Shown here piece by piece: positions 484-20,258 of a stretch of DNA of 36,796 nucleotides. This DNA is from Pseudonocardia sp. (GTDB lineage: Bacteria > Actinomycetota > Actinomycetes > Mycobacteriales > Pseudonocardiaceae). The stretch spans positions 1 to 36,796 of the forward strand of contig JAJCYC010000320.1 of the NCBI GenBank assembly GCA_029263115.1, written 5' to 3'. The translations under genes and the position numbers were made by a program. Position 1 is the stretch's first letter, and the number at the start of each line of letters is the position of its first letter. Under the pieces are notes generated by a model. It searched no databases, was not told the DNA's origin, and worked only from the letters and a program-made list of their open reading frames with translations.

Positions 484-522
484 TATGATTAGGTTAGCCA
501 AAGCTAGTTGACGCGAGCCTAA
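484..522 (+). promoter_or_regulatory. iron-box promoter (tandem DtxR/IdeR-type sites) of the EPSPS-like operon
   Basis: TTAGGTTAGCCAAAGCTAG at 489-507 matches the IdeR/DtxR consensus TTAGGTTAGSCTAACCTAA at 16 of 19 positions. A second, weaker and overlapping site at 504-522 (13/19) ends in GCCTAA. A good -10-like hexamer TATGAT lies at 484-489 and overlaps the first base of the box, so a bound repressor would cover the transcription start. No convincing -35 is seen at 16-18 bp spacing. The first start codon downstream is ATG 548, with GGGAG at 533-537. The remaining 310-480 stretch shows nothing else recognisable apart from the hairpin at 329-360. Confidence 0.7.
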
Positions 523-547
523 CTATCGAAGTGGGAGCGATCGCCCG

Positions 548-1870
548 ATGACCCCGACCCAGGATCCCCGCCTGGCTGCCCACGAGGTGTCGGTGCGGAC
601 CGCGACGTCGGTCGATGCGACTGTTCCGGTGCTGGGCTCGAAGAGCTACACCAACCGCCACCTGGCCATCTCCTCCTTCGCGGCCGAGCCGACCGTGATC
701 GACCGGGCGTTGGTGTCGGACGACACCGTGTACCTGGCGCGAGGTATCGAGGCGTTCGGCCACGTTGATGTCGAGATCGACCGGGACGCCGAGCGGATCG
801 TGGTCCGGCCGACGGGGCGGCGGATGCGCGCTCCGGACGACGAGATCTACGTGGGTGGTGCCGGCACGCCGATCCGCTTCCTGATCGCCATGGCCGGGCA
901 CGCCGAGGGTGTGACCGTGCTCAACGGCAACGCCCGCATGCAGGAACGCCCAATGGGTGACCTGCTCGCGGCGTTGCCGGCCCTCGGCGTCACTGCTGAG
1001 GCCGTCCGGGGCAACGGTTCCCCACCGATCCGCGTGCAGGGCGGCTCCTACGCGGGTGGGGCCACCAGGATCAGCGGTCAGGTGTCGAGCCAGTTCACCT
1101 CGAGCCTGATCATCAACTCCGTCGCCGCCCGGTCGGACACCGAGATCACCATCTCCGACGAACTCATCTCCCAGCCTTACGTGGACATGACGCTCACCGC
1201 GCTGGCCGAGCGGGGGATCGAGGTGGAGAGGGAGGACTTCCGACGCTTCCGCATCCCCGCCGGCCAGCGCCCGCGGGGAGGGTCGGTGCTGGTGGAGCCG
1301 GACGCCTCGGGGATGTCCTACTTCCTGGCGGCCGCAGCCGTGCTGGGCGGCCGGGTGACCATCCCGGGTATCGGGACCGGTTCCTGCCAGGGCGACGTCG
1401 GGTTGGTGGGCGTGCTGGAGCGGATGGGCTGCCAGACCGAGAGGGCCGCCGACGCGGTGACGGTCAAGGGCGGGCTGCTGCGCGGCGTCGACGTCGACAT
1501 GGAGGCCATGCCCGACGTGGTCCCGACGCTGGCCGTCGTAGCCGCCCACGCCGAGGGCATGACCCGGATCACCAACATCGCCTCGCTGCGGATCAAGGAG
1601 TGCGACCGGATCAGCGCGGTCACCACCGAGCTGCGCAAGATGGGCATCGAGGTCGAGGAGTTCCCGGACGCGATGCACATCACCGGCGGTCTCCCCGGTC
1701 CGGCTGTCATCGACACCTATGACGACCATCGCATCGCCATGAGCTTCGCGGTCGCCGGACTGGCGACCGACGGTGTGATAATCAACGACCCGGGGTGCGT
1801 GGCGAAGTCCTTCCCGTCGTTCTGGCGGGTGCTCGACGGCATCCACCCCGAGGGGAGCGCCACCCGATGA
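548..1870 (+). CDS. EPSP synthase-family enolpyruvyl (carboxyvinyl) transferase, AroA paralog
   Basis: A 440-residue protein with the full EPSPS/MurA-type two-domain plan. EPSPS active-site elements are visible: GSKSYTNR (Lys32, Ser33, Arg37), [10 protein letters not shown] (Arg110), ERP (Arg134), SSQFTSS near 180, [10 protein letters not shown] near 318 with the catalytic Asp, RIKECDR, YDDHR and [10 protein letters not shown] with the late Lys. It should therefore transfer enolpyruvate from PEP to a hydroxyl acceptor. It does not resemble the typical actinobacterial housekeeping AroA, which has a C-DR-AGT-type loop and a HETDR motif, and here lies next to an iron box and an iPGM-like gene rather than shikimate genes. 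The acceptor may be shikimate-3-phosphate, boosting chorismate for an aromatic siderophore, or another compound. Family is clear; role is inference. The stop overlaps the next start (ATGA). Confidence 0.85.
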
Positions 1871-3378
1871 CCGGCGCGCCGGGCACCCTGCTGGTCATCG
1901 ACGGGTGGGGCGAGGGTCCACCGGAACCGGGCAACGCGCTGGCCGCCGCCGACACCCCGACACTGGACCGGCTCCGGGCGACCTGCCCGAGTGGACTGCT
2001 GGCCGCATCGGGGGAGGACGTCGGGCTGCTGCCCGGGACGGTCGGCAACTCTGAGATCGGGCACCTGGTCATCGGCGCCGGCCGGTCGGTGCCCTACGAC
2101 AGCCTGCTGGTGCAGCGGCGGATCGACAGCGGGCAACTGCGCGCCGACGACGTACTGGGGAGCGCCTGTACCGCGCTGGCCTCCACCGACCGGGCCCTGC
2201 ACCTGATCGGGCTGTGCTCCGACGGGCAGATCCACGCGCACGTCGACCACCTGGGCGAACTGCTCGTGGTGGCCGCCGCACACGGGGTGCCGAGGGTGTG
2301 GGTGCACGCCGTCTGTGATGGGCGGGACGTACCCGACGGTACCTCGCCCGGCTACCTGCGGCGGGTGGAGAAGCTGGCGGCCGAGGCCGGTTGTGGTCGG
2401 GTGGCGACCGTGAGCGGTCGCGGTTACGCGATGGACAAGGCCGGCAACCTGGACCTCACCCGTCAGGCCACACGGGTGATCGCGGATGCGGACGGGGCGA
2501 GGGCCGGGACGCCGGATCTCGCGGTGGCCTCCGGACAGCGCGGCGACGAGTGGATCCCGCCCACCGTGGTGTCCGACGCGTCGACCGCGGTCCGTGACGG
2601 GGACCTGCTGCTGTTCGCCAACTTCCGCAGCGACCGGATCCAGCAGCTGGCGGACTCGCTGCTGGAGCACCTGGCCGTTACCGGTCGCGGGGTGAGCGCG
2701 TTGAGCTTGACCCAGTACGACACCCGCGCGGTGATCCCGGCTCTGGTGGGCCGCGCCGAGGCCACCGGGGGACTGGCCGAGTGCCTCGACTCGGCGGGAT
2801 TGCGCTCGGTGCGGATCGCGGAGACCGAGAAGTTCGAGCACGTCACGTACTACCTGAACGGGCGGGACGCCACCCGCCGGCCGCTGGAGGAGCACCAGCG
2901 GATCCACTCCGAGGGTGTGCCGGACTACCGGGCCCGGCCGGAGATGCACCTCGACCGCGTGGCCGACGGCGTCATCGCCGCCGGCGCCCGCCCGGAGGTG
3001 TCGCTGGTAGTCGCGAATCTGGCGAACATCGACGTCGTCGGGCACACCGGTGACTTCGCTGCCACGGTTCGAGCCGCAGTGGAGACCGACCGGCAGGTCG
3101 CGCGCATCGTCGAGGCCGCCGGACGAGCCGGCCGGTGGGTCCTGATGGTCGGCGATCACGGGAATGCCGAGGAGATGACCAGACCGGGCCCCGACGGGCC
3201 CGTACCGTACGGGGGGCACACGACCAATCCGGTACCGGTCGTGGTGGTACCGGCACCGGGTCACCCGGCCCCGGGCGCACCGGCCGTCACCGGTGGGCTC
3301 GCCGACGTGGCTCCCACCGTCCTCGCCCTGCTCGGTTCGCCGCCCGGCGCGGCGATGACCGGGACGCCGCTCCTGTGA
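1867..3378 (+). CDS. 2,3-bisphosphoglycerate-independent phosphoglycerate mutase-like phosphomutase (GpmI family)
   Basis: The ATG at 1867 overlaps the previous stop (ATGA), giving 503 residues, close to the usual 510. The alkaline-phosphatase-superfamily metal ligands are kept: Asp12 (VIDGWG), nucleophile Ser62 in VGNSEIGH, the NIDVVGHTG motif, GDHGN and GGHTTN. His123, Arg153, Asp154 and Arg185 sit at the same numbers as in the Geobacillus enzyme; NFRSDR and AETEK are also kept. The substrate loop normally reading GRYYAMDRDxRW is [12 protein letters not shown] here: Arg191 is Lys and the following D-x-R-W is lost. It is therefore likely an active phosphotransferase or phosphomutase whose substrate may differ from 3-phosphoglycerate. 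Pairing with a PEP-using enzyme suggests supply or rearrangement of a phospho-acid. A genuine but divergent glycolytic isoenzyme remains possible. Confidence 0.85.
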
Positions 3379-3686
3379 GCACCGCCGGGGGTGCGATGGA
3401 CACCTCGGGCGCCGGGCACGTCGGCCTCGAGGCCGCCAGCATGCAGCTACGGGCCGATGGGCTACGGGTACTCCGCGCCCGGATGACCGACGGCGCGCGC
3501 CTGCTGTGCGTGTACAACACCGGTAGCGACGAGGCCCGATTCGCCCTCGAGGAATTGAGCAACGACGGTCTGCAACCGCGCTTCTCGGGTGGGGCGATGC
3601 GGACCAGTGCGAGTTCCACCGGCGGCATCGTCTGCCACCTCGACGGGGGAGGTCACGTCTGCCTGACGCTCGGCCCCGAGCCCTGA
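3375..3686 (+). CDS. small protein of unknown function, third gene of the iron-box operon
   Basis: The GTG at 3375 overlaps the previous stop (GTGA), giving 103 residues; an in-frame ATG at 3396 is an alternative start. No signal peptide or membrane segment is visible. The middle (VLRARMTDGARLLCVYNTGS, then strand-rich segments ending HVCLTLGPEP) has the alternating look of a small beta-sandwich and vaguely resembles the C-terminal all-beta domain of GH13 amylases. That resemblance is weak and no enzyme residues go with it. Its last 34 bases overlap, tail to tail, the end of the ABC ATPase gene on the other strand. Coding status rests on the coupled start and on codon usage like its neighbours. 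Confidence 0.55.
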   Translation: MSTAGGAMDTSGAGHVGLEAASMQLRADGLRVLRARMTDGARLLCVYNTGSDEARFALEELSNDGLQPRFSGGAMRTSASSTGGIVCHLDGGGHVCLTLGPEP

Positions 3687-4363
3687 GCCGGGGAGGTCGT
3701 AGCCTCGAGGTCCACCTCACGGTCGCACAGCCGGCGCACCTGGTCGTCGTCGTGCGAGACCAGGACCACGGTGCGCCGCCCGAGCAGACCGGCAACCGCG
3801 GCCTCGACCACATCCCGCGAGGCGTTGTCGAGCGCGCTGGTCGGTTCGTCCAGCAGCAACAGTTGCGGGTCCAGCGCGAGGGCCCGGGCCAGGCACAGCC
3901 GCTGGCGCTGGCCGACCGACAGCGTATGTGCCGGGGCGTCGAGGCGGTCGGCGACCTCGTCCCACAGTCCGGCCTCGGCCAGCGCGGCGCACGCCCGTTT
4001 CCGCAGCCCAGCCCGGCCGTACCGGGTGACGTGCCGTAGCCCGAACGCCGCGTTGGCCAGGACCGAGCCGGCGAACACCACCGGAGTCTGGCCGACCAGC
4101 ACCGCTGACCCGCGCAGCTGCGCCCAGCGCCGGTCGTGTCGCTTCCAGCCGTGTACCGCATCGCCCAGCACGTGCAGCTCACCTTCGACGTGCAGTTCGT
4201 CGGGCAGCAGCCCGACCATGGCCCGTAGCAAGGTGGACTTGCCCGCGCCGGACCGGCCGCGCAGTCCGAGGGTCTGCCCGGGTTCGAGGTCCAGGCTCAC
4301 CGGACCCACCAGAACCCGGTCCCGGTGGCGCACGGACGCGCAGCAGAACGAGATGGCTTTCAC
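3653..4363 (-). CDS. ABC transporter ATP-binding protein, PstB-like
   Basis: The GTG start at 4363 overlaps the permease stop (GTGA), giving 236 residues. Walker A is GRSGAGKST, the Q-loop is VGQTPVVFAGSV, the signature is LSVGQRQRL (one change from LSGGQ), Walker B is LLLLDEPTSALD and the H-loop is VLVSHDDD. This is a complete, compact ATPase subunit of an importer. It is somewhat shorter than typical PstB (about 250-260), and lacks the usual PstB N-terminal sequence, so the family assignment leans on the neighbouring PstS-like and PstC/A-like genes. It powers uptake by the fused permease encoded upstream. Confidence 0.85.
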   Translation of the reverse strand: MKAISFCCASVRHRDRVLVGPVSLDLEPGQTLGLRGRSGAGKSTLLRAMVGLLPDELHVEGELHVLGDAVHGWKRHDRRWAQLRGSAVLVGQTPVVFAGSVLANAAFGLRHVTRYGRAGLRKRACAALAEAGLWDEVADRLDAPAHTLSVGQRQRLCLARALALDPQLLLLDEPTSALDNASRDVVEAAVAGLLGRRTVVLVSHDDDQVRRLCDREVDLEATTSPAQGSGPSVRQT

Positions 4364-6147
4364 AGGTCGGCCTCCATGCGGCGACGTGCGGGGACCGCGG
4401 CCAGCAGGAGCAGGGTCGAGATCAGGACGAGCACCAGGGCGGCGCCCCAGGCGGCGTCGAGCGCGGCCGGGTCGGCGGAGTCCTGGGCGAGGGTGAAGAC
4501 GTGCGTGGGCAGGGCCACCACCGGGGAGTGCGCGATGCCGGAGGGCAGCCCGGCCGCACCGGCGAAGACGGTCGCCGCGAACAGCAGGGGCGCGGTCTCG
4601 CCGGCGGCCCGGGCCAGTCCGAGCAGCGACCCGGTCAGCAGCCCGGGCCGGGCCCACGGCACCAGTACCGACCGGACGAACTGGGTGCGGTTCAGCCCGA
4701 GGGCGAGCGCGGCCTCCCGGCGGGCGGGCGGCAGGGCGACGATGCGGGACGCCGTGACCATCGCGGCGACCGGTACGACCAGCACGGCCAGCGCGACCGT
4801 ACCGGCCAGCCAGCTCTTCCCCCAGCCGAGGGTACGCACGACCAGGTCGTAGGTGATCAGCCCGAGCAGGATGGAGGGCACACCGCCGAGGGTCACCGTC
4901 GCGGTGCGCAGCCACACGGCGGCACGGCGACCCGCGTACTCCGCGATCAGCAGCCCGAGGCCCAGCCCGATCGGGGCGGCCAGCGCGGCGGTGCCGATCA
5001 CCAGCACCGCGGTGCCGAGGATCTGGTCACGGACCCCGCCCTCGCCCGACCCGGCGGCCGGGGTGAACCAGAACGCCGGGTTCCAGCCCACCGCCCCGCG
5101 CACCGCCAGCACCCCGAAGACACCGGCCACCAGGAGCAGCGGGACCAGCACCGCCAGCCGGAGCCCGGCGATCCAGGCGCGGTCCCGCAGCTCGCGCGCG
5201 GCCCGCCGCGGCCGCGGCTGCCGGTGTCCGGAGCCGGTCGGAGACCGCCGGAGTCCGGCCAGGGTCATCAGCACGACGAGCGCGAGCAACAGCAGGCCGA
5301 GCGCCGACAACCCGGCCCAGTGCGCACTGCCGGCCCCGGCCAGCACCGCCTCCGGGCCGCCGATCTTGGTGGTGAGCGTCTGCCCCGGGCGCAGCACCGC
5401 GGCGAACACCTCGTGCGGTGCGGGGAGCCGGCCGTCGGCGCGCCCGATCACCAGGAACACGGCGATCGTCTCGCCGAGAGCCCGGGCGAGCCCGAGCAAC
5501 ACCGCTGCGCGCATGCCGGGGGCCGCGTCGGGCAGGACCGCGGCCCGGACCACCTCGGTGCGGGTGAGCCCGAGGGCGGCGGCCGCCTCCCGGGTCTGCG
5601 CCGGCACGGCGGCGAGCGCGTCGATGCTCACCGCGACGATCGTGGGCAGCACCATCACCGCCAGGATGAGCCCGGCGGTCAGCAGCCCGTCCCCGCCCGG
5701 CACCCCGAACACGGCGCTGACCAACGGTCGCAGCAGGGCCAGGCCGACCAGCCCGTAGACGATCGACGGGATGGCGGCCAGCATCTCCACCCCGGCCCGC
5801 AGGGCCTGCGCGGTGCGGGCCGGGGTCAGTTCGGTGAGCCCGATCGCGGCCGCCCAGCCGAGCGGGACCGCCACCAGCAGCGCGACGAGGCACACCGCCG
5901 CAGTGCCCCAGATCATCGCGGCGGCCCCGAACCGCGCGCGCGTCGGGTCCCAGACCGGATCGGTCAGCAAGGTCAGCCAGTCCAGCGGAGCGGAGGTCGC
6001 CCCGTCGAGCAGGAAACCCAGCACGGCCAGCCCGGCGAGTGCCGCCGCCAGACCCGCCGCTACGGCGAGCCCCGCCGGCCAGGGCGTCGAGCGAGGCCGC
6101 CGGGCGTCGGCCGCCCGGTCGGCCTCGGCCGTGAGGAGATCGGTCAA
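4360..6147 (-). CDS. fused PstC-PstA-like phosphate-type ABC permease
   Basis: The 595-residue polypeptide contains two consecutive permease halves. The first spans about residues 25-290 and carries the coupling loop EAAAALGLTRTEVVRAAVLP. After a basic linker near 295-320 (rich in Arg and Pro), a second six-helix half carries EAALALGLNRTQFVRSVLVP. In standard Pst systems these are two proteins, PstC and PstA. The start is TTG at 6147, three bases after the binding-protein stop; no other start fits. It would form the membrane channel with the ATPase encoded at 3653-4363. The substrate is presumably an oxyanion, not necessarily phosphate given the altered binding protein. Confidence 0.85.
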   Translation of the reverse strand: MTDLLTAEADRAADARRPRSTPWPAGLAVAAGLAAALAGLAVLGFLLDGATSAPLDWLTLLTDPVWDPTRARFGAAAMIWGTAAVCLVALLVAVPLGWAAAIGLTELTPARTAQALRAGVEMLAAIPSIVYGLVGLALLRPLVSAVFGVPGGDGLLTAGLILAVMVLPTIVAVSIDALAAVPAQTREAAAALGLTRTEVVRAAVLPDAAPGMRAAVLLGLARALGETIAVFLVIGRADGRLPAPHEVFAAVLRPGQTLTTKIGGPEAVLAGAGSAHWAGLSALGLLLLALVVLMTLAGLRRSPTGSGHRQPRPRRAARELRDRAWIAGLRLAVLVPLLLVAGVFGVLAVRGAVGWNPAFWFTPAAGSGEGGVRDQILGTAVLVIGTAALAAPIGLGLGLLIAEYAGRRAAVWLRTATVTLGGVPSILLGLITYDLVVRTLGWGKSWLAGTVALAVLVVPVAAMVTASRIVALPPARREAALALGLNRTQFVRSVLVPWARPGLLTGSLLGLARAAGETAPLLFAATVFAGAAGLPSGIAHSPVVALPTHVFTLAQDSADPAALDAAWGAALVLVLISTLLLLAAVPARRRMEADL

Positions 6148-6150
6148 GGT

Positions 6151-7014
6151 CTACTGCCCGAGTTGCTCGAGGGTGAGGTACCCGTGCCTGGGTAGGATCT
6201 GCTGGCCCTCGCCGGACGCCACGAAGTCGATGAACTCCTTGGCCCGCCCGGCGGCCGGGCCGTTGGTGACCAGGTAGAGCGGCCGGGACATCGGGTATTT
6301 GCCGGCCGCCACCGACTGGGGCGTCGCCTCGACGCCGTCCAAGGCCACGACGGCGAGTTCGGGGTGGTCGGTGACGAACGAGGTCGACAGCGGAGCCACG
6401 GAGCCCGGGGTGCTCATCAGCTTGGCCCGGGTCTCCTCGTTCCCGCCGACCACGGCGTAGCGGGGCGAGTCGGGCGGCGGCGGGGCCGTCTCCTTGCCGT
6501 ACATGTACTTGTCCAGCGCCTCCCGGGTGCCGCGACCGGGTTCCTTGTCGTAGACGAAGATCCCCAGATCGGGCCCGCCGAGCTCGCGCCAGTTCGTCGT
6601 GCGCGCCTCGAAGATCGCCCGGGCCTGCTCGCGGGTGAGGTTGCGGACACCCGCGTCGTACACGTCACGTCGCACGATGATGCCCACCGCGTCCTCGCCG
6701 ACCTTCGTCGGCTGGTGGTCGCAGTTCGGGAACTGCTGGCGGTCCGAATCGGCGATCGGCTTGGAGGACATCGCGATGGCGATCTCGCCGCCGCACACCT
6801 GCGCGAGCCCGCCGGCCGAGCCGCCCTGGGTGTCGACGGTGATCGGCTTGCCGGAGCGGCCACGCAGCACCTCGGCGGCGTCCACCGCCACCGGGTTCAC
6901 GGTGGTGGAGCCGCTGATCCGCAGCGTGTCGGTGGCGTCACCGCCGGCGCAGGCGCTCAGTGCGAGCAGTGCGCCCAGAGGAAGCGTGCGGATCGTGGAT
7001 CGGAGACAGATCAT
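6151..7014 (-). CDS. PstS-like lipoprotein substrate-binding protein with altered ligand loop
   Basis: The ATG at 7014 overlaps the ATP-grasp stop (ATGA), giving 287 residues. A signal peptide ends in a lipobox LSAC with Cys22, so the protein is predicted to be membrane-anchored outside the cell. PstS-family elements follow: RISGSTTVNPVAV, TQGGSAGGLAQVC, IAMSSKPI and TTNWRELGG. The phosphate loop of PstS (R-x-x-x-S-G-T) reads K-E-P-G-R-G-T here, so the conserved Arg is Lys and the conserved Ser is Arg. This suggests a ligand other than inorganic phosphate, or altered affinity. Together with the fused permease and ATPase it makes a complete importer, co-transcribed with an ATP-grasp enzyme from an iron-box promoter. 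Confidence 0.85.
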   Translation of the reverse strand: MICLRSTIRTLPLGALLALSACAGGDATDTLRISGSTTVNPVAVDAAEVLRGRSGKPITVDTQGGSAGGLAQVCGGEIAIAMSSKPIADSDRQQFPNCDHQPTKVGEDAVGIIVRRDVYDAGVRNLTREQARAIFEARTTNWRELGGPDLGIFVYDKEPGRGTREALDKYMYGKETAPPPPDSPRYAVVGGNEETRAKLMSTPGSVAPLSTSFVTDHPELAVVALDGVEATPQSVAAGKYPMSRPLYLVTNGPAAGRAKEFIDFVASGEGQQILPRHGYLTLEQLGQ

Positions 7015-8354: not shown

Positions 8355-8362
8355 TTGACTCC

Positions 8363-8526: not shown

Positions 8527-9507
8527 TCACGGACGCGGTGGCTGAATACTGACCGCCTCCTCGGCGGCGAGCACCTCGTGCAGGACGCCTCGCTCGTACG
8601 CGTCGACCAGTTCGACCACTCGCTCGCCGACAAGTCGTTGGGAGTCGGTGGCCATCGCCGCGATGTGCGGGGTCAGCAGCACATTGGACAGCTCGGCGAA
8701 AGGTGATGCCGTGCCGTCCCCCTCGTGCTCGTGCACGTCCAGGGCCGCGCCCGCGATCCGGCCTCCTGAGGTCAGCTCCCGGTACAGCGCGGCCTCGTCC
8801 AGCACACCGCCGCGTGCGACGTTGATCAGGTGGGAGCCCGGCTTCATCCTCGCAAGCGTCGCGGCGTCGACCAGGCCCCGCGTCCGTGCTGAGAGCGGTA
8901 CGTGCAGGCACAGAAAGTCCGACTCGGCGACGACGGTCTCGAACGGCACCAGGGTCACCTGGCGAGCGGCGAGCCGGTCCCGCGCCGCGGCGGTGTGGCC
9001 GGCCACGCAGCCGATCGCGCGCATGCCCCACGCCGCGCCCATCTCGCCGACTCGGGTCCCGATCCGCCCGGCCCCGACCACGCCGATCGTTCGGCCCGAC
9101 AGTAGCGGCCCGCCCAATTCCGCCTTCGGCCACCGGCGGCGGCGGAGCTCACGGTCGGCGACCACCACCTTGCGGGCCAGCGCGAGCAACAGGGCGAACG
9201 TGAACTCGGCCACCGGTTGCGCGGAGGAGCCGGGCACCCGCACCACGGTCACGCCATGATCGATGGCCGCGTCGACGTCGACGTTGTCCAATCCCGAGCC
9301 GGCGCGGACCAGTAGGCGCAGCTCCGGTGCTGCCTTGATGACCTGCTCGCACACCTGCACCCCGCTCCGGAAGATGATCGCCTCGCGGTCGGCGACCGTC
9401 CGGCGCAGGTGCTCGGGATCCACGTCAACGGCCTGCGTCACGTCGTGTCGCCGAGACAGGGCGGTCGCGGCGTCCGGATCGATCCGGCTGGCCAGCAGGA
9501 TTCTCAT
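8527..9507 (-). CDS. D-isomer-specific 2-hydroxyacid dehydrogenase (SerA/3-phosphoglycerate dehydrogenase-like)
   Basis: The ATG at 9507 is preceded by AGAGGGA, giving 326 residues, the length of a catalytic-plus-NAD-domain enzyme without the regulatory ACT/ASB domains of full SerA. Visible features are LLVRAGSGLDNVD, the NAD-binding GVVGAGRIGTRVGEMG, INVARGGVLDEAAL with the catalytic Arg, and TPHIAAMA with the catalytic His. It should oxidise a D-2-hydroxy acid or reduce a 2-keto acid. In this neighbourhood 3-phosphoglycerate or a related phospho-acid is an attractive substrate, but glycerate, hydroxypyruvate or lactate-type acids cannot be excluded. It has its own upstream region, divergent from the glycan operon, with only a weak iron-box candidate. 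Confidence 0.8.
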   Translation of the reverse strand: MRILLASRIDPDAATALSRRHDVTQAVDVDPEHLRRTVADREAIIFRSGVQVCEQVIKAAPELRLLVRAGSGLDNVDVDAAIDHGVTVVRVPGSSAQPVAEFTFALLLALARKVVVADRELRRRRWPKAELGGPLLSGRTIGVVGAGRIGTRVGEMGAAWGMRAIGCVAGHTAAARDRLAARQVTLVPFETVVAESDFLCLHVPLSARTRGLVDAATLARMKPGSHLINVARGGVLDEAALYRELTSGGRIAGAALDVHEHEGDGTASPFAELSNVLLTPHIAAMATDSQRLVGERVVELVDAYERGVLHEVLAAEEAVSIQPPRP

Positions 9508-12832: not shown

Positions 12833-14307
12833 GACGAGCGCTGGACGTCCTCTTCGCGGTCGTCGCCGGGGTGCTCGTCGCCCCGGTGGCGCTGGGCGTG
12901 GCCGGGCTCATCGTCGCGGTCATGGGTCGGCCCGTGTTCTTCCGGCAGCACCGCAGCGGCCTGCACGGCGCGGTGTTCTCCGTGTGGAAATTCCGTACCA
13001 TGCGCGCTGAGCGGTGGCCCGGCCAGCCCGATGCGGAACGCATCCCCCGGCTCGGTGCGTTCCTCCGCGTGACCAGCCTCGACGAGCTGCCGCAGCTGTG
13101 GAACATCCTGCGCGGGGACATGAGCCTGATCGGACCGCGCCCGACGCTCCCCTCGCAGGTCGCGCACTACTCGCCGCGGCAGCGTGGCCGGCTGGCGGTA
13201 CGGCCCGGTCTCACCGGCTGGGCACAGGTCAACGGCCGTAACTCCCTCAGCTGGCCGCACCGGATCGAGCTCGACCTGTGGTACATCGAGCACCGGAGCG
13301 TGCGGCTCGAATTCGAGATCCTGCTGCGCACCGTGATGGTCCTGCTCCTGCCCCGGGGGGTCACCGCCGCCGGCGGGACCAACCCCGATTTCCCCGTCCC
13401 GGCGCAGCGGGACACGAGCCCGAACCCGCCGGAGCTGCTGTCGGCAACGGGGTCCCGCGACGGGCCCGCCCGGGCCGGGGAGATCAACGCGCCGGAGATC
13501 GCGACATGCTGCGGCGGAAGAAGCGGCGACTCCTGGGCCTCCCCACCAGCACAGCCGCCGAACCGGCGGACGGACTTCGAAGATCTGGAGGTTTCAATGC
13601 ACAGTTATCGACGGGTACTCACCCGCTACTGGGGGCTGGTCGTGGCCGGGCTGATCGTCGGGTTGACGATCGCGGCCGCGATCACCTTCACCACCGCCTC
13701 GACCTACACCTCACAAGCGGTGTACCTGCTCTCCGTGCCGGGCCGGGACGACCCGTCGAACGCCGAGGACAAGGCCCGGTCCTACGTCAAGCTGCTGACC
13801 CTCGAGAGGGTCGGCGACAACGTTGTGCGGTCGCTGGCGCTGAACGAGAGCGCGGGCGAGTTCACCGAGCGGGTCACCGCGCGTCTCGACACCAACACCA
13901 TGATCGTTCGGGCCCTGGTGACCGATGACTCCCCGGTCGGCGCCCAGCGGATCGCCGAGGCGCTCAGCCAGCAGTTCGTGGCGATCGTCGCGGAGCTCGA
14001 GCAGCCGCCCGGCACGGCACCGGGCTCGGTCCCGGGCGCGCTGACCGTCCGACAGGTGCAGCCGGCCACACTGCCCGTTGAGCGGACCGCCCCGGTGACG
14101 ACGCTCAACTTCGGGCTCGGCGCGATCCTCGGCATCCTGGCGGGGATCGGCCTGGCTCTGGTCGCCGATCGGGCTCGTGGCGACGAGGACGGGACAGCGG
14201 CCACGACGAGCGGTCCGCCATCCGACGAGAACCTGGTCGGCGCGTCAGCCGCCCCGGCCACCTCGCCCGCCGGCACCGGGGACGCCGAGCTCGGCACAGA
14301 GTCCTGA
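12829..14307 (+). CDS. phosphoglycosyl transferase fused in frame to a Wzz-like chain-length domain
   Basis: A single open frame of 492 residues. Residues 1-185 are a monotopic bacterial sugar transferase (WcaJ/PglC type): an N-terminal hydrophobic helix, FFRQHRSGLHG, VWKFRTM, the catalytic Asp-Glu in SLDELPQLWN, and GPRP. It would transfer the sugar phosphate to undecaprenyl phosphate. A Pro/Ser/Gly-rich linker covers about 186-256. Residues 257-492 look like an actinobacterial Wzz/capsule chain-length protein: MHSYRRVLTRYWGLVVAGL opening, a large outside domain, a second hydrophobic segment near 425-445 and a polar tail. The internal ATG at 13597 has GGAGG five bases upstream, so a free Wzz-like protein may also be made. 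It overlaps both neighbours by a few bases. Confidence 0.85.
   Translation: MRRALDVLFAVVAGVLVAPVALGVAGLIVAVMGRPVFFRQHRSGLHGAVFSVWKFRTMRAERWPGQPDAERIPRLGAFLRVTSLDELPQLWNILRGDMSLIGPRPTLPSQVAHYSPRQRGRLAVRPGLTGWAQVNGRNSLSWPHRIELDLWYIEHRSVRLEFEILLRTVMVLLLPRGVTAAGGTNPDFPVPAQRDTSPNPPELLSATGSRDGPARAGEINAPEIATCCGGRSGDSWASPPAQPPNRRTDFEDLEVSMHSYRRVLTRYWGLVVAGLIVGLTIAAAITFTTASTYTSQAVYLLSVPGRDDPSNAEDKARSYVKLLTLERVGDNVVRSLALNESAGEFTERVTARLDTNTMIVRALVTDDSPVGAQRIAEALSQQFVAIVAELEQPPGTAPGSVPGALTVRQVQPATLPVERTAPVTTLNFGLGAILGILAGIGLALVADRARGDEDGTAATTSGPPSDENLVGASAAPATSPAGTGDAELGTES
13587..13599 (+). promoter_or_regulatory. internal Shine-Dalgarno and ATG within the fused gene
   Basis: GGAGG at 13587-13591 lies five bases before the in-frame ATG at 13597, exactly where the Wzz-like domain begins. 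This is one of the best ribosome sites in the operon. It suggests a second translation start yielding a 236-residue Wzz-like protein, or an ancestral gene border where the upstream stop was lost. Confidence 0.55.
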
Positions 14308-15581
14308 TGGCGGGGCCGACCGCCGACGTCGGGCCACCGGGCGCGACGACAACCGCCCGGCTGTCACTCCTGCTGGTCGTGGGGCTGTTCACGGTGGCCC
14401 TGCTCGGCCAGTTCACCTTCGATCGTATCGGGGTGGAGCGGTTCGGCGACCTGGACCCGCGGCTCGTGGTGTTCCCGGTGTTGGCCGCCGCGGTGCTGCT
14501 GTGGCGGTTTCAGCCGGATCTCCGGGACTACCGGCACCCCTGGCCGCAGTCGACGTTGCTGGCGGTCGCGCTGACCGGCTTCCTCGCGCTGAGCGCATTC
14601 TGGGCCCAGCCGGACGCCCGGGTCGGTGAGAGCCTGGCCGATCTGGCGTTCCTGGGGCTGCTCATCGTGCTGGCCACAATGATCTCCGCTCCGGACCCGG
14701 CGCGAGCCCGGCGCCTGGTGCTCATCCTGATGCTGCTGGCGGCGATCGCCTACACGGCTGCCGGCCTCATCGTCGGTGACACCAACGTGCAGGGCCGCGC
14801 CACGGCATTCGCCGGGGGGCCGAACGTGTACGCCCGGGTAGTGTTGCTCGGGGTCGTCGCGGCGGCCGCGCTGGCCGTCATCTACCGCCGCGGGTGGCTG
14901 TTGCTGGGCGTGCCGTTCCTCGCCGCCGCCGCGCTGCTACCGGCCTCCCGTGGTGCGGTCCTGGCCGGCTTGCTGACCGTGCTGCTGTTCGGCGTGCTCA
15001 CCTGGCGGCGATGGACGGTGCGCGGGGTCGGGGTGAGTGTGCTGCTGGCGGCAGGCACCGTGCTGGTGGCCCGGACACTGGTGCCGCCGGCGGCGGCGGA
15101 GGTGGCCCGGACCCGGTTCGTCGAGCTCTTCGAGGAGCGCCTGCTGTCGGGTCGGCCCGAGCTGTTCTCCCAAGCGTGGTCGATCTTCCTGGACGACCCG
15201 CTGCTCGGGGTCGGGGTGGACGGTTTCTTCGTGCTCTACGGCGCATCGGCGAACCTGCAGTACCCGCACAACCTGGTGCTGGAGCTGGCCGTAACCGGTG
15301 GGGTCACCGCGGTGGTGCTCTTCCTGCTGTTCCTCGCCACCCTGGTCCGGGACACCCGGCTGCTGCGGCCGCTCACCGTCGACCAGTTCGCCATGCTGAT
15401 CTCGGCCGGGTTCGTCGGCGCGGCCAGCCTCGTCTCCGGCGGGATCTACGACACCCGGTTCTTCTGGGTGTTCGTGGCGCTCGCGGTGAACCCCCCGGCG
15501 GCCCGCGCGAGGGCCTCCTCCGGTCGAGCCGACGATCGGACGCCGTCCGCACTGGTCTCCGGGGTGGGCGATCGCCGGTGA
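14307..15581 (+). CDS. O-antigen ligase/polymerase-like membrane protein (Wzy family)
   Basis: The ATG at 14307 shares one base with the previous stop (TGATG). The 424 residues are almost entirely hydrophobic segments, about ten to eleven, with one larger loop at about 265-310 containing RFVELFEERLLSGRPELFSQ and LQYPHNLVLELAVTGG, the latter matching the conserved H-N motif of the Wzy_C/WaaL family. It should polymerise or transfer undecaprenyl-linked repeat units outside the membrane, working with the flippase encoded next. Polymerase versus ligase cannot be told from sequence; in a Gram-positive, polymerase is more likely. Confidence 0.8.
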   Translation: MAGPTADVGPPGATTTARLSLLLVVGLFTVALLGQFTFDRIGVERFGDLDPRLVVFPVLAAAVLLWRFQPDLRDYRHPWPQSTLLAVALTGFLALSAFWAQPDARVGESLADLAFLGLLIVLATMISAPDPARARRLVLILMLLAAIAYTAAGLIVGDTNVQGRATAFAGGPNVYARVVLLGVVAAAALAVIYRRGWLLLGVPFLAAAALLPASRGAVLAGLLTVLLFGVLTWRRWTVRGVGVSVLLAAGTVLVARTLVPPAAAEVARTRFVELFEERLLSGRPELFSQAWSIFLDDPLLGVGVDGFFVLYGASANLQYPHNLVLELAVTGGVTAVVLFLLFLATLVRDTRLLRPLTVDQFAMLISAGFVGAASLVSGGIYDTRFFWVFVALAVNPPAARARASSGRADDRTPSALVSGVGDRR

Positions 15582-16858
15582 CTGGTAAGCGGCTCCGAGC
15601 GCGCTGGTCGGGGCCCGTGCAGCTGGTCCGCCGGATGGTGGGTGACGCCGCGGCGTTGCTGCTCGCGGCCCAGCTGGTGGCGGCGGGCGTGGCGTTCGTC
15701 GTCAACATCCTGGCTGCCCGGGTACTCGAGCCCGCCGGGCGCGGCGAGCTGGCGTTGCTGCTGCAGATCGCCTACGTGGGCAGCCTGGGGCTGCTCCTCG
15801 GGGTGAACCGCAGCGTGATCCCGGTGTACGCGGGAGAGCCGGCGCGCACCGTCACCCGGGCGTTCGCCCGCCTGCTGGTCGCGCCCTCGGCGGTCGGGCT
15901 GGCCGTGGCGTTCGGTCTGCTGGCGCTGCCCGCTGTGGGGTCCTGGCGGGTGGCGCTGGCCGTCGCGGTGCTGTTCGCGGTGGTGAACGCCTTCGCCCGC
16001 TCGGTGCGGGCCATCGCCATCGCGGGCGGCCGCCACGCGGACTACCTGCGCCACACGCTGCTCAGCAACGGGCTGCTGATGACCCTGGTCGTGCCGCTGT
16101 TCCTGCTCGAGGTGCGGGACAGCACGGTGTGGCTGCTGGCCTACCTCGTGGTGGGCGCCGTGGCGGCCGCGGCGTGGTTCCTCCGGTGGGCGCTCGCCGG
16201 GAGCGCAGCCGCAGCTCCGGCCGATCCCGCCCGGCTGCACGAGGCGCGCCGCGAGGGGCTGAAGCTGCTGCCCTTCGCGATCGCCCGCAGCGGCGTCATG
16301 CGGTTCGACCGGTTCCTGCTGGCCGGGATCGCCTCCACCGCGGCCCTCGGCATCTACGCCGGCGTGGCGACGATGACCGAGCTGGTGGCCTGGCCGCTGG
16401 TGGCGTACGCGGACTCACGGCTCGGCCGGTGGCGAACCCAGAACGACCTGGGCGAGCTACGCATGCGGACCTTGTTGCTCCCCGCCGCGGCGTACAGCGT
16501 GGTGGCGTCGACGGCGATGGTCGGTGTCACGCACCTGATGCTGCCGCTGCTCGGACCGGCCTACCAACCGGCGGAGACGCTCATCGTGCCGCTCTGCGCC
16601 GCCGCCGGGATCTTCGGCATGACTCACCTGGCGGTCAGCCTGCTGATCGCGCTACGGCGCAGCGTGCTGGCCTCGATCGTGGAAACCGTCGGCTTCGCGG
16701 TGAGCATGATCGGGTACATCGTGTTGATCAGCCGTTACGATGCACTGGGAGCGGCCTACGGATCACTACTGGGTTACCTGAGCTGCCTGGCCGTCGCGGG
16801 AGTGGGACTTGCCGTCGGCCGCCGGAGAACCGGCCCGAACCCGGGAAGTGAGTGGTGA
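15578..16858 (+). CDS. polysaccharide flippase (Wzx/MOP-like)
   Basis: The GTG at 15578 overlaps the polymerase stop (GTGA), giving 426 residues. Twelve or so hydrophobic segments are visible, beginning LLLAAQLVAAGVAFVVNILA with the family-typical AARVLEPAGRGELALLLQ, then LLPFAIARSGVMRFDRFLLA in the middle. It should move the lipid-linked repeat unit across the membrane. With the neighbouring polymerase and chain-length domain it completes a Wzx/Wzy-type assembly line. The protein is slightly shorter than many MOP flippases but has no sign of a break. Confidence 0.8.
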   Translation: MTGKRLRARWSGPVQLVRRMVGDAAALLLAAQLVAAGVAFVVNILAARVLEPAGRGELALLLQIAYVGSLGLLLGVNRSVIPVYAGEPARTVTRAFARLLVAPSAVGLAVAFGLLALPAVGSWRVALAVAVLFAVVNAFARSVRAIAIAGGRHADYLRHTLLSNGLLMTLVVPLFLLEVRDSTVWLLAYLVVGAVAAAAWFLRWALAGSAAAAPADPARLHEARREGLKLLPFAIARSGVMRFDRFLLAGIASTAALGIYAGVATMTELVAWPLVAYADSRLGRWRTQNDLGELRMRTLLLPAAAYSVVASTAMVGVTHLMLPLLGPAYQPAETLIVPLCAAAGIFGMTHLAVSLLIALRRSVLASIVETVGFAVSMIGYIVLISRYDALGAAYGSLLGYLSCLAVAGVGLAVGRRRTGPNPGSEW

Positions 16859-18057
16859 TGTCGAGGTCGTCGGTCCCGCGCCGGCTCGGCCGCATCCGTC
16901 CTGCGGCCGGGGCGGTCGTGCCCCGGTTGCGCCGCGCCGTTACCCGGGCGGTCGCGGTGGCTGCGGTAGTCATGTTGTGCACGGCCGCCGCACCCGATCT
17001 GCGCGAGCCCGCTCCGCCTCCACCGGTTCCGACCGCCGCGCCGCTCCCGGTGAGCCACTGGCAGGGGCTGTTCGACGCCGAGTCGGCCGGCGAACGGCAG
17101 GCCAGCCTGCGGCTCAGTCGCTCGGCCGACAGCTGGGACCACTACAACCTCGCCTACCAGATCGACGCCAACGTCAGCCTGTTCCTGGCCACCGGGCAGG
17201 CGCGGTACGCCGATCTGGGCCTGACCATGGCCGAGAACATGATCGGGTCTGCCCGTCCCTCATCGAGTCTGCCGGCCAGCGGTTTCAAGGACGGTTACCG
17301 GGGTTGGGCCGCCACCCAGCTGAACTCCGGGGGGCAGGAACTGGCGCTGACCGAGAGCTACGCCTGGCGATACGTCACCCACCTCCTGGTGGCCCTGCGG
17401 TCCAGCCCGCTGTACGGCGACCCGTCGTACCTGACCCGCTACCAGCGCGTGCTCGAGTTCAGCGAGAAGCACATCTTCGAGAAGTGGTTCACCCGTGACC
17501 CGGTCAAGTTCATCTACCGCGAGCGGACTCACATGGCCGCGCACTGGGCGTACATCTCGATCGCGCTGGCCAAGGTCACCTCGGACAACGGTCTGCGCAA
17601 GCGCTACCGGGAGGTGGCCGCCAAGATCGATGACGATCTGCCCAACTACCCGTCCTCGCTGCGTGGCCAGTTGATGGCGAGCCGCTCCGAGCCGATGGCG
17701 TACTGGTGGAGCGACGTGTGGGGGCGGAAGACCGGTAACGGTCAGGACATCGCGCACGGCAACGGTGTCATCTCCTATGTGGCGGCCTCGTGCGACTGGG
17801 GTGCCGGCTGGACCAGCGAGGAGATGTCCCGGTTCTCCCGGACGTTGACCGCCTTCGTCCTGGGCCGGGACGGGCGCTACCCGGAGTTCGTGAACGGGCG
17901 AGGCAGCGGCACCGGCTGGTTGGCCGACGGGTTCGTGAAGCTCGGGCGCTACAACCCGGCGGTGCAGCGGGCTCTCGAGCAGCACGGAGTGCAGAACTCG
18001 CAGTTCCACGCCTCGATGGCGTTGAACGCGCACCTCCTCGCCACCGCCCGACCCTGA
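16858..18057 (+). CDS. secreted alpha-helical toroid-like protein of the glycan operon, function unknown
   Basis: The ATG at 16858 shares one base with the flippase stop; in-frame GTG codons at 16852 and 16855 are less likely. 399 residues. An Arg-rich start followed by AVTRAVAVAAVVMLCTAAAP is a signal peptide or anchor, then a Pro-rich spacer. The mature part is helical with aromatic, repeated motifs (SWDHYNLAYQIDANVSLFLA, ESYAWRYVTHLLVAL, HMAAHWAYISIALAKV, PMAYWWSDVWGRK), typical of (alpha/alpha)-toroid carbohydrate-active proteins such as lyases, epimerases or unsaturated glycoside hydrolases. No catalytic residues can be assigned. Placement suggests cutting, editing or binding of the exported polymer. 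Confidence 0.7.
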   Translation: MSRSSVPRRLGRIRPAAGAVVPRLRRAVTRAVAVAAVVMLCTAAAPDLREPAPPPPVPTAAPLPVSHWQGLFDAESAGERQASLRLSRSADSWDHYNLAYQIDANVSLFLATGQARYADLGLTMAENMIGSARPSSSLPASGFKDGYRGWAATQLNSGGQELALTESYAWRYVTHLLVALRSSPLYGDPSYLTRYQRVLEFSEKHIFEKWFTRDPVKFIYRERTHMAAHWAYISIALAKVTSDNGLRKRYREVAAKIDDDLPNYPSSLRGQLMASRSEPMAYWWSDVWGRKTGNGQDIAHGNGVISYVAASCDWGAGWTSEEMSRFSRTLTAFVLGRDGRYPEFVNGRGSGTGWLADGFVKLGRYNPAVQRALEQHGVQNSQFHASMALNAHLLATARP

Positions 18058-18068
18058 CGGGGGATCGC

Positions 18069-19331
18069 GTGGACGTCGTCTACCTCCACCAGTACTACGG
18101 CACGCCGGAGATGCAGGGCGGCACTCGGTCCTACGAGTTCTCCCGCAGGCTGGTGGAGCGCGGGCACCGGGTGCACATGATCACTGCAGCTCCGCTGGAG
18201 GACTCGAACCGGCGCGAGGGCTGCTGGTGGACGACCGAGGCGGCGGGCGTGACCGTGCACTGGTGCGGCGTGCCCTACTCCAACCATATGGGGTTCCGGG
18301 ACCGAATCCGGGCCTTCAGCCGGTTCGCGGTTCGTGCCTCCTTCCGGGCGTCCGGGCTGCCCGCCGACCTGGTGTTCGCCACCAGCACGCCGTTGACCAT
18401 CGCGGTGCCGGGCGGGATCGCGTCGCGGCGGCTGCGGGTCCCCATGGTCTTCGAGGTCCGCGACGTGTGGCCCGAGGTGCCGATCGCCATGGGGGTGCTG
18501 GGGAACCCGACGGCTCGGCGGGCGGCCCTGGCCCTGGAGTCGTGGGCCTACCGCAGCTCTGCGGCCCTGATCGCGCTGTCGCCCGACATGGCCCGCAGCA
18601 TCAGCACGAGGTTCCCGGAGATACCGGTGACCGTCGTGCCGAACTCGTCGGACCTGGACCTGTTCGCCGAGCCGGACGCCGCCATGGTTGCGGCCGTCCG
18701 GGCCGATCGGGCATGGCTGGGGCGTCGCCCACTGCTGCTGTACGCCGGTACCTTCGGCGACGCCAACGACCTGGGGTACCTGGTGCGGGTGGCCGAGGTG
18801 CTGCGCTCCACCGCCCCGGAGGTCCGGATACTGCTGGTGGGGGAGGGAAAGGACGAGGGCGCGTTGGAGCGGCTCGCCCGTGACCGAGGGGTGTGGGAGC
18901 GCAACCTGTTCGTCGAGCCGCCGGTCGCCAAGAACCGGATGCCGGCGCTGTTCGGGGCGGCCGACCTGTGCGCGTCGGTGTTCGCGGACGTTCCGGCGTT
19001 GTCCGCCAACTCGCCCAACAAGGTGTTCGACGCCTTCGCCGCCGGCCGACCCGTGGTCATCAACAACGGTGGCTGGCTCGAGGAGGTCCTCGACGAGTCC
19101 GGCGCGGGCTTCGCCGTTCCAGCTAGGGACCCCGCCGCGGCGGCTGAACTGATCGCTCGTCGGATCACCGATCCGAATTGGCTCGCGGGGGCCGGTTCAG
19201 CCGCGGCGGAGCTGGCCGAAGGCCGGTTCAACCGCGATCGCTTGTTCGAGGCGTGGGAGCGGGTGTTGCTCGACGCCGCCGCCGCTGGTCGACCCCGGGA
19301 GAGCCGTCGAGTAGTCAGCCGCGGCCGGTGA
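18069..19331 (+). CDS. family 4 glycosyltransferase (WbuB-like)
   Basis: The GTG at 18069 follows GGGGGAT; 420 residues. The N-terminal VDVVYLHQYYGTPEMQGGTR and the Asp-rich donor domain containing LLYAGTFGDANDLGYLVR, LLVGEGKDEGALERLA and SPNKVFDAFAAGRPVVI are typical of GT4 GT-B enzymes, closest in look to WbuB-type aminosugar transferases. It should add a sugar to the lipid-linked unit on the cytoplasmic face. It is the only clear glycosyltransferase in the operon apart from the initiating enzyme, so the repeat unit made here may be as small as a disaccharide unless further transferases lie elsewhere. The end overlaps the opposing GNAT-like gene by 17 bases. Confidence 0.88.
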   Translation: MDVVYLHQYYGTPEMQGGTRSYEFSRRLVERGHRVHMITAAPLEDSNRREGCWWTTEAAGVTVHWCGVPYSNHMGFRDRIRAFSRFAVRASFRASGLPADLVFATSTPLTIAVPGGIASRRLRVPMVFEVRDVWPEVPIAMGVLGNPTARRAALALESWAYRSSAALIALSPDMARSISTRFPEIPVTVVPNSSDLDLFAEPDAAMVAAVRADRAWLGRRPLLLYAGTFGDANDLGYLVRVAEVLRSTAPEVRILLVGEGKDEGALERLARDRGVWERNLFVEPPVAKNRMPALFGAADLCASVFADVPALSANSPNKVFDAFAAGRPVVINNGGWLEEVLDESGAGFAVPARDPAAAAELIARRITDPNWLAGAGSAAAELAEGRFNRDRLFEAWERVLLDAAAAGRPRESRRVVSRGR

Positions 19332-20169
19332 ACCGGTAGTACTGGTGCGGCCGAACCCGACGGAGGAACTGGTCTGGGCCCGGGGCGAACCAAGCCCTGG
19401 CCGGTAGCGGCGACACGACGAGGCCGATCCGCCGCTTGAACTCGTTGAGCCCGAGGTCGTCGCGCACGTGCAACCCGTGCATCACCTCGACCAGGGCGGG
19501 CTGGCGAGAGACCAGGGTGGCGAACGCGTGGAACAGGCAGATCGAGGCCCGGGCAGCCAACCCTTCGTTGTTGACGTACACCATGTCGTGGTAGGCCGCG
19601 CGGTCGACCGCGAAGGTCATCGAGAAGCCGAGCAGGCGCTGGTCACGTACCGCGGCCAGGATCACCCCCCGCCCAGGGAAGTAGGACTCGATGTTGCGTT
19701 TGAACTGCGCGATGGGCGGCAGGCCGATGCCCGGATCGCGGGCGTGTGCGGCCGAGGCCACCTCATAGCCCTGGTCCAGGATGAGGTCGGGGCTCTCCAG
19801 CGCGACGATGTCCACCGCGCGCATGCCCTGCCGGAGGTACCGTCGCGGCGTCTGGCTCAGCCGCGACATGTCGTAGCTCTGCGGATCGGGCAACGTGTGC
19901 GCTGGCAGGCAGGCATCGGATCGATCCGCTGCGTCGTCGATCAGCCGAGCGCGAAACCCGATACAGCGCCGGGCCGGCCGGGTCGCCTCGTCGGGGGTGA
20001 GCCTTGCGAGGTGGTGAACGGGCTGGAAGACGAACGGCCGCGATTCCATCCACCACCGGCCGAGGTGCTCGACCGGCCTCCGCCCGCGTATGTCCTGCCA
20101 CTCCGCGCACTGCGCCTCGGTGAGTTCCGGCAGTCGCGCGGCGTCCCAACTGATGGCGCACAGGGTCAT
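19315..20169 (-). CDS. GNAT-like/FemAB-like acyltransferase
   Basis: 284 residues from ATG 20169, preceded by GAGGTGG. The segment RGVILAAVRDQRLLGFSMTF is a GNAT-type strand-turn, followed by VDRAAYHDMVYVNNEGLAARASICLFHAFATLV and EVMHGLHVRDDLGLNEFKRRIG. The last resembles the 'GL...K..lG/F' C-terminal helix of GNAT and FemAB-type transferases that N-acylate amino sugars or lipid-linked substrates. The N-terminal half is rich in Arg and Trp and not recognised. It is divergent from the FemAB-like gene and shares its iron-box region. It could acylate the 4-amino sugar of the glycan. Confidence is fair for the fold, low for the substrate. Confidence 0.55.
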   Translation of the reverse strand: MTLCAISWDAARLPELTEAQCAEWQDIRGRRPVEHLGRWWMESRPFVFQPVHHLARLTPDEATRPARRCIGFRARLIDDAADRSDACLPAHTLPDPQSYDMSRLSQTPRRYLRQGMRAVDIVALESPDLILDQGYEVASAAHARDPGIGLPPIAQFKRNIESYFPGRGVILAAVRDQRLLGFSMTFAVDRAAYHDMVYVNNEGLAARASICLFHAFATLVSRQPALVEVMHGLHVRDDLGLNEFKRRIGLVVSPLPARAWFAPGPDQFLRRVRPHQYYRFTGRG

Positions 20170-20235
20170 CTCGGCACCACCTCAACCTCGCCAACCCACT
20201 CTCGCGGCGGCCGCCTGAGAGTTCGATCCACTCGC

Positions 20236-20258
20236 TATAGTAGCTGAGGCAAACCTAA
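20236..20258 (+). promoter_or_regulatory. iron-box promoter of the FemAB-like gene
   Basis: GTAGCTGAGGCAAACCTAA at 20240-20258 matches the DtxR/IdeR consensus at 15 of 19 positions. The near-consensus -10 TATAGT lies at 20236-20241, overlapping the box by two bases, the same layout as at 484-507. No clear -35 is seen. The box lies in the 120-bp gap between divergent genes and could also affect the GNAT-like gene starting at 20169. Confidence 0.65.

Follow-up and report, generated by a model that had tools for sequence, protein, structure and literature searches.

A probable arsonate biosynthesis module of the bsnMN type beneath predicted IdeR iron boxes in Pseudonocardia sp.

The window considered here is the whole 36,796-nucleotide stretch of contig JAJCYC010000320.1 of Pseudonocardia sp. 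(assembly GCA_029263115.1). Its left part holds an island in which homologues of bsnM and bsnN, two genes of the bisenarsan pathway of Streptomyces, stand beside an operon for an ATP-grasp ligase and a transporter of the Pst type (Table 1). A short D-2-hydroxyacid dehydrogenase gene, an exopolysaccharide locus and a FemAB-like gene follow, and the contig end cuts through a gene for a FutA-type iron-binding protein. Three promoters of the island carry 19-bp sites of the kind bound by the iron repressors IdeR and DmdR1, and it is the placing of a predicted organoarsenic pathway under such sites that is examined below.

Table 1. Features of the island, in window positions
Feature	Positions	Strand	Evidence
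FutA/FbpA-type iron-binding protein gene, C-terminal part, cut by contig end	1..309	+	phmmer to 2pt1, 7li0, 2voz, 6g7n
-10-like hexamer TATGAT	484-489	+	1-base overlap with box 1; read from sequence
Iron box 1	489-507	+	TTAGGTTAGCCAAAGCTAG; 16/19 against consensus; 24.3 bits
Degenerate second box beside box 1	504-522	+	8.9 bits
bsnM homologue, EPSP-synthase family, predicted arsenoenolpyruvate synthase	548..1870	+	TIGR01356 417 bits; tree
bsnN homologue, iPGM family with K191 motif, predicted arsonopyruvate mutase	1867..3378	+	TIGR01307 398 bits; tree and motif
Small protein of ~103 aa, 3' of bsnN	3375..3686	+	no Pfam match; 37-38% to a stretch in 2/40 relatives
PstB-like ATPase	3653..4363	-	Walker A, signature and Walker B readable in translation; 59-66% to ATPase of 25 full-Pst loci
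Fused PstC-PstA-like permease	4360..6147	-	TIGR02138 290.2, cut-off 196.45; TIGR00974 289.7, cut-off 193.45
PstS-like substrate-binding protein	6151..7323	-	PF12849 6.5e-30; TIGR02136 150.6, below cut-off 206.6; PDB phosphate-binding proteins
ATP-grasp ligase, first gene of Pst-like operon	7011..8354	-	PF02786; hhalign to arsonate-locus ATP-grasps
Iron box 2	8363-8381	-	TTAGTCGAGGCTTGCCTAA; 14/19 against consensus; 15.3 bits
-10-like hexamer TATTCA	8387-8382	-	abuts box 2
Short SerA-like D-2-hydroxyacid dehydrogenase	8527..9507	-	PF02826 7.9e-50
Weak fourth iron-box-like site	9625-9643		11.5 bits; between divergent SerA-like and polysaccharide genes
Exopolysaccharide locus	9759..19331	+	Polysacc_synt_2, DegT, Bac_transf, Wzy_C, two Pfam-less frames, glycosyltransferase
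-10-like hexamer TATAGT	20236-20241	+	2-base overlap with box 3; read from sequence
Iron box 3	20240-20258	+	GTAGCTGAGGCAAACCTAA; 15/19 against consensus; 21.4 bits
FemAB/GNAT-like gene (PF13480)	20290..21228	+	Pfam; polysaccharide linkage in congeners

The initial annotation had described three sites resembling the iron-box consensus, each touching or overlapping a -10-like hexamer in the orientation of the gene downstream. Both the sites with their match counts and the arrangement of the hexamers, all three of which point toward their respective downstream gene, are borne out by direct reading of the sequence against TTAGGTTAGSCTAACCTAA, the 19-bp IdeR/DmdR1 consensus. For scoring, strings with at most three mismatches to this consensus were collected from 40 congeneric genomes including the host (matches in 34 of them; a reversed control pattern gave a single match in total across the same genomes), and 67 distinct box strings, host rows excluded, formed a matrix that is biased toward this consensus. 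Boxes 1-3 are the top three non-overlapping scores within the window. Under a first-order Markov model 0.005 sites of at least 15 bits are expected per window, the simulation having yielded 4 such positions among 30.0 million, while a host background sample of 243 kb (contigs C1-C20) held one such position among 242,553, or about 0.15 per window, and that lone position may itself be a real box. When sequences were simulated with the composition of each intergenic region, 1, 10 and 2 of 40,000 runs attained the top score observed for boxes 1, 2 and 3 respectively, and 42 of 40,000 that of the fourth site. The earlier argument that three such sites are hard to obtain by chance is therefore upheld, all three scoring far above background with the matrix. 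Five sites in the genome, box 1 among them, lie within three mismatches of the consensus; the reversed pattern has no such site. The string TAGNNNNGGCNNNCCTAA, common to boxes 1-3, occurs exactly four times in 5.1 Mb, at these boxes and at a strong box on contig C228; as it was derived from the three boxes, only the scarcity of other matches is informative. When one mismatch was tolerated, the string gave 16 matches and its reversed control 50.

A repressor able to read such sites appears to be encoded in the genome, which contains four matches to PF01325, three of them above the cut-off. The best of these proteins, encoded on contig C201, gave alignments of 235 residues with 7b1v, a DtxR-family repressor (337 bits), and with IdeR itself (1fx7, 283 bits). 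Its stretch SGPTVSQTVARMERDGL, which is presumably the DNA-reading helix region of a DtxR-family repressor, is identical to the same stretch of 7b1v. Judged by these alignments the C201 protein is an IdeR orthologue; other DtxR-family matches are found on contigs C230 and C248. Elsewhere in the genome the strong C228 box lies 11 bp ahead of the gene for a DUF2470 protein and another, on C317, about 40 bp ahead of a flavodoxin-type reductase gene. The FutA-type neighbour named in the initial annotation was also recovered, the cut gene at the left end matching three iron-binding protein structures and 6g7n in phmmer searches, and a PF13343 search for the rest of the gene gave no match. A functioning IdeR regulon is thus likely on the evidence of sequence.

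The enzymes behind box 1 belong to families better known from primary metabolism, namely the 5-enolpyruvylshikimate-3-phosphate synthases (EPSPS) and the cofactor-independent phosphoglycerate mutases (iPGM). In S. lividans the (2-hydroxyethyl)arsonic acid portion of bisenarsan depends genetically on bsnM (an EPSPS), bsnN (a phosphoglycerate mutase) and bsnJ (a decarboxylase); the proposed route leads from arsenate through arsenoenolpyruvate to arsonopyruvate, and bsnMN are reported to be common across actinobacterial genomes in varied surroundings (PMC12159101). When the window EPSPS was compared with 59 relatives, 56 of which gave a match, the top identity was 39%, and the host's own aroA was located on contig C23. 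A FastTree phylogeny placed the window protein inside a BsnM-type clade of 44 rows with local support of 100, apart from 20 AroA rows, and given this tree an ordinary aromatic-pathway isozyme is unlikely. The window iPGM belongs to a clade of 41 rows characterised by the motif GR[GN]xxx[DE]K, whose lysine, residue 191 of the window protein, is present in 41/41 rows, the equivalent residue being arginine in 10/10 ordinary GpmI. From a phylum sample of 396 genomes a single close relative of this iPGM was obtained, at 63% identity, in Streptomyces aureus NRRL B-1941 (locus L145); the others among the matches listed did not exceed 45%. Within about 8 kb that locus contains homologues of EPSPS, iPGM, PstS, PstCA and PstB with 66.5, 61.7, 57.5, 55.1 and 62.0% identity to those of the window. 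By gene content and synteny the pair is the bsnMN arsonopyruvate module, and it is predicted to form arsonopyruvate from arsenate. The initial statement that no described system has this gene set can consequently not be kept, the EPSPS and iPGM genes being the module described from Streptomyces (PMC12159101), which is often found beside the same Pst-like transporter. A phosphonate pathway was ruled out, as the best match to phosphoenolpyruvate mutase in the genome was 25.2 bits against a cut-off of 31.5.

The surroundings of bsnMN in other genomes were surveyed by a contig scan with two iPGMs, which gave 43 loci, 40 of them bacterial; the three archaeal loci (L146-L148, with two arginines and one gap in the iPGM motif listing) are excluded from all counts of 40. 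Flanks extended to at most 10 kb per side, less in four loci, and gene counts come from a crude gene caller and from single-linkage clusters, each of which takes its name from the one member, or the few, that had been scanned; compared with tblastn, the caller missed the iPGM in 3 loci, the EPSPS in 1 and PstCA in 1/25. By tblastn the EPSPS homologues (58-73% identical to the window protein) and iPGM homologues (49-68%) are adjacent in all 40 bacterial loci, and such pairs are also adjacent in three further Pseudonocardiaceae genomes, in one of which the caller had missed the iPGM. Within the family itself the iPGM relative at E 1e-60 is present in 6/390 Pseudonocardiaceae genomes, host included. 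ArsR-type genes lie near bsnMN in 34/40 loci, SBF/ACR3-type genes in 12, ArsP in 11 and a molybdopterin oxidoreductase cluster in 23. A thiamine pyrophosphate (TPP) enzyme is found in 11/40, and the three members scanned all exceed the phosphonopyruvate decarboxylase cut-off. A polyketide synthase (PKS)-type cluster was seen in 2/40 loci (domains were read in L142), with homologues in the three extra Pseudonocardiaceae loci. PstS, PstCA and PstB occur together in 25/40 loci by tblastn, and a PHO4-type phosphate transporter cluster in 7 others. ATP-grasp genes stand beside bsnMN in 11/40 (30 proteins; each of the 20 that were scanned proved to be an ATP-grasp), and FemAB-family genes in 20/40, never together with a TPP decarboxylase in the flanks.

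Judged by this company, the Pst-like transporter of the window is probably an arsenate importer. The true start of its PstS-like protein probably lies nearer 7050 than the frame in Table 1 implies. The ATP-grasp protein that opens the operon was compared with the ATP-grasps of the bsnMN loci by hhalign (probability 96.8, 23% identity over 231 columns), and by that comparison it is a distant relative of them. The only match that a search of the order returned for it was a host paralogue at 37%, L033:4578-5939 (C300), beside an AAA/VWA gene. The SerA-like dehydrogenase is a candidate arsonopyruvate reductase.

A Pfam scan of 30 window frames detected no gene for ArsR, for arsenic efflux, for a decarboxylase or for a PKS; for all but the decarboxylase the search covered the window only. 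Rfam gave no match in the window at the gathering score. The best phosphonopyruvate decarboxylase match in the whole genome was 26.6 bits against a cut-off of 312.5, and for this reason arsonopyruvate is probably not decarboxylated as it is in bisenarsan synthesis. A scheme can be put together from these parts. Fe(II)-loaded IdeR would occupy the boxes that cover the -10 elements and start regions of three units (bsnMN, the ATP-grasp-pstS-pstCA-pstB operon and the polysaccharide gene) and would leave these boxes when iron is scarce. Arsenate would then be taken up by the PstSCAB-like importer, the EPSP-synthase homologue would transfer an enolpyruvyl group onto it to give arsenoenolpyruvate, and the iPGM-like mutase would convert this to arsonopyruvate with formation of the C-As bond. 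Arsonopyruvate might then be reduced by the SerA-like enzyme, joined to an amine in amide linkage by the ATP-grasp ligase, or both. We lean, with moderate confidence, towards reading the island as an arsonate biosynthesis module under the iron repressor IdeR, iron-regulated and decarboxylase-free, with an arsenate importer and an ATP-grasp ligase of its own.

A number of observations weigh against this reading. No iron box was found ahead of bsnM in any of the 40 relatives, the three extra Pseudonocardiaceae genomes reach at most 5.8 bits there, and the FemAB orthologues of four congeners lack one as well (0/4), so that none of the relatives examined keeps any of the boxes. From the absence ahead of bsnM and the low scores in the extra genomes iron control seems lineage-specific, and it looks like a rewiring within this lineage. 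Box 2 is weak, the lowest of the three. Two of the four other strong boxes of the host have no clear promoter placement: C373:2504-2522 (L037; 27.8 bits) extends into the 3' end of a minus-strand MFS_3 gene at 2514-3776, whose start has only a much weaker site of 8.7 bits at 3778, and C217:10143-10161 (L036; 19.9 bits) lies about 0.5 kb ahead of a pyruvate carboxylase-like gene at 10677. A strong score is accordingly not always a promoter site. In S. coelicolor, on a different matrix scale, DmdR1 sites under the refined threshold are reported to show no mean anti-correlation with dmdR1 (PMC12161575). The BsnM and BsnN of S. lividans lie outside the tree and alignment sets, and the identification of the module rests on gene content and synteny. 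At E 1e-20 the window ATP-grasp matched nothing in 396 further genomes from its order, and neither the pattern-based contig scan nor plasmids gave an orthologue. The assembly, made up of 377 contigs, has a completeness of 94.6% and this contig is cut at its left end, so a decarboxylase or ArsR gene may sit in a gap. Within the flanks of the 40 loci the only site of at least 15 bits was at L110 (Herbidospora), L110:4635-4653 with 16.8 bits, some 300 bp ahead of a gene for an M28 peptidase, with bsnM about 4 kb away. A 9.9-bit site at L120:5215-5233, also Herbidospora, was noticed some kb ahead of bsnM before a gene of M28-peptidase-like size; L110 and L120 are both bsnMN loci of the FemAB/ATP-grasp type.

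The standing of box 3 needs separate treatment. Because FemAB genes occur in half of the bsnMN loci it was at first thought to be part of the same pathway. Orthologues of the window gene were found in four congeners, and in two of the three examined their neighbours include homologues of Polysacc_synt_2, DegT and Bac_transf; the 20-kb stretches in question contain neither an EPSPS nor an iPGM homologue. Used as a single-sequence query, the window protein gave no profile match to either FemAB group of the bsnMN loci. A role as an arsono-peptide ligase was rejected on these two grounds, polysaccharide linkage and lack of a match. By its congeneric neighbourhood the gene is a member of the neighbouring polysaccharide locus, and box 3 most likely denotes iron control of a polysaccharide gene. 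Three Pfam-less frames lie in that locus, at 14894-16858, 16852-18057 and 19315-20169. The initial proposal of one probable iron-starvation regulon thus survives in part: boxes above background, the IdeR orthologue, the C228 and C317 boxes ahead of genes and the FutA neighbour speak for it, while the assignment of the FemAB-like gene to a polysaccharide locus, the weakness of box 2 and the lack of conservation limit it.

Several other explanations were weighed. That the boxes are chance or decayed sites, the operons being driven by other means, would agree with their absence from relatives, with the weakness of box 2 and with a 27.8-bit box at the 3' end of a gene; against this, three sites were seen where a small fraction of one is expected, each on a correctly oriented -10-like element, and the local simulations seldom reached their scores, which makes such an origin improbable. 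Manganese control, exerted on the boxes by an MntR-like member of the DtxR family instead of IdeR, is very improbable. iPGM-type enzymes use manganese and there are the further DtxR-family matches on C230 and C248 to supply such a protein, but the boxes match the IdeR/DtxR consensus, and those of the DUF2470 and flavodoxin-type reductase genes were picked out with the same matrix. It could also be supposed that the boxes are functional and that the EPSPS and iPGM are ordinary isozymes supplying chorismate to siderophores, with the Pst-like system taking up phosphate. Both proteins do exceed the ordinary aroA and iPGM equivalog cut-offs, and the EPSPS motifs appear intact in the translation. 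Such a role is nevertheless unlikely in view of the low identity to the EPSPS of relatives set against 58-73% to BsnM-type proteins from arsenic-gene-rich loci, of the K191 change of the BsnN-type clade and of the separate aroA. Equally unlikely is the idea that the boxes unite a single pathway in which the ATP-grasp and FemAB-like proteins tailor arsonopyruvate to an arsono-peptide. It draws on the frequency of FemAB genes and ATP-grasps beside bsnMN and on the avoidance of TPP decarboxylases by the former, and is rendered doubtful by the missing profile match and the polysaccharide neighbourhood of the FemAB-like gene.

An iron-timed arsonate pathway may either supply a product that serves the cell in iron starvation or protect it from arsenate that dissolving iron minerals set free. 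On the second possibility siderophores would dissolve ferric minerals and free arsenate, and release of IdeR repression would switch on its detoxification to an arsonate, the product having no iron role. Bisenarsan is significantly less toxic than arsenate (PMC12159101); metabolites including siderophores have been proposed to dissolve arsenic-bearing sand, with siderophore makers scarce among the isolates (PMC4370401); and an interplay of arsenic and iron control is known in Agrobacterium, from the ArsR side (PMC7965956). A dedicated Pst-like importer would be odd for detoxification, and neither ArsR nor an arsenic efflux gene is among the window frames scanned, and the protective role is a tentative suggestion. 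Deliberate production of an organoarsenical in iron starvation, with dedicated arsenate import and a decarboxylase-free arsonate (arsonolactate or an amide) made under IdeR as an iron-linked chelator or an antibiotic for iron competition, is likewise a tentative suggestion on which we would not insist. Against Staphylococcus aureus the arsonate part of bisenarsan reportedly exceeds arsenate in activity, and an antibiotic role of the Trojan-horse kind has been put forward (PMC12159101), which would fit a competition product. The importer slightly favours the iron-starvation product, and the lower toxicity of bisenarsan the arsenate shield.

The survey of relatives yielded some observations of independent interest. 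In the flanks of L106-L145 the tailoring genes fall into mutually exclusive sets, a TPP decarboxylase (11 loci), an aminotransferase with FemAB (10) and FemAB with two or three ATP-grasps (10), which suggests two unexplored classes of arsonate product, perhaps arsono-peptides. Of 781 proteins called in the same loci and in the window, 67 end in Cys-Cys, and they are spread over 32 of the 40 loci. Such ends were found in both FemAB groups (10/10 and 10/10), in 22/30 ATP-grasps, 9/9 CMD-type and 9/21 redox proteins, for example L110:15252-16391, L110:13988-15271 and L126:4450-6465, compared with 1/443 proteins in sampled host contigs, called with a slightly different caller. None occurs in the window or in the three extra Pseudonocardiaceae. 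A Cys-Cys end is a possible arsenic-binding tail, and nothing on such tails in bsnMN tailoring enzymes was evident in the open-access literature searched. Microtetraspora glauca (L116) and Streptomyces roseolus (L137) have near-identical bsnM and bsnN, through recent inter-family transfer or a mislabelled strain.

The island resembles the bsn cluster of S. lividans and S. coelicolor in its adjacent bsnM and bsnN homologues with a predicted path from arsenate to arsonopyruvate. It differs in that the scanned window frames lack the bsnJ decarboxylase, PKS, ArsR and arsenic efflux, in an additional ATP-grasp gene, and in having IdeR-type boxes where arsenate-responsive control is reported for bsn. 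With the IdeR, DmdR1 and DtxR regulons of Actinomycetota it shares a 19-bp box over the -10 and start region, an IdeR orthologue and a neighbouring FutA-type gene, but its predicted targets, in place of siderophore genes, are the arsonate module, the Pst-like importer and one gene of the polysaccharide locus; the string 'arsen' is absent from the main text of the paper on the S. coelicolor DmdR1 regulon (PMC12161575). The transporter has the PstS-like, PstC-PstA and PstB-like parts of a PstSCAB phosphate importer, from which it is set apart by the fusion of PstC and PstA, a PstS below the family cut-off and co-location with bsnMN in 25/40 loci. The arsinothricin cluster (arsQML) is likewise a case of bacterial organoarsenic biosynthesis, but its C-As bond is made by a radical S-adenosylmethionine (SAM) enzyme and not by an EPSPS and mutase pair (PMC12159101). 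SAM-independent formation of the C-As bond by bsnMN is a recent finding, and what bisenarsan does for its producer is given as unclear (PMC12159101). The novel part of the present island, as predicted from its genes and promoters, is that an arsonate module stands under iron boxes and that, by the genes found, it includes an ATP-grasp and no decarboxylase, and no pathway joining iron limitation to formation of a new C-As bond was found in the open-access literature searched. In this bacterium an organoarsenic pathway appears to be controlled by iron instead of arsenic. A bsnMN copy that has been switched from arsenic to iron control, with its importer kept and no decarboxylase found, would point to uses other than detoxification and to a new product, and the island offers a testable model of iron-controlled arsonate synthesis.

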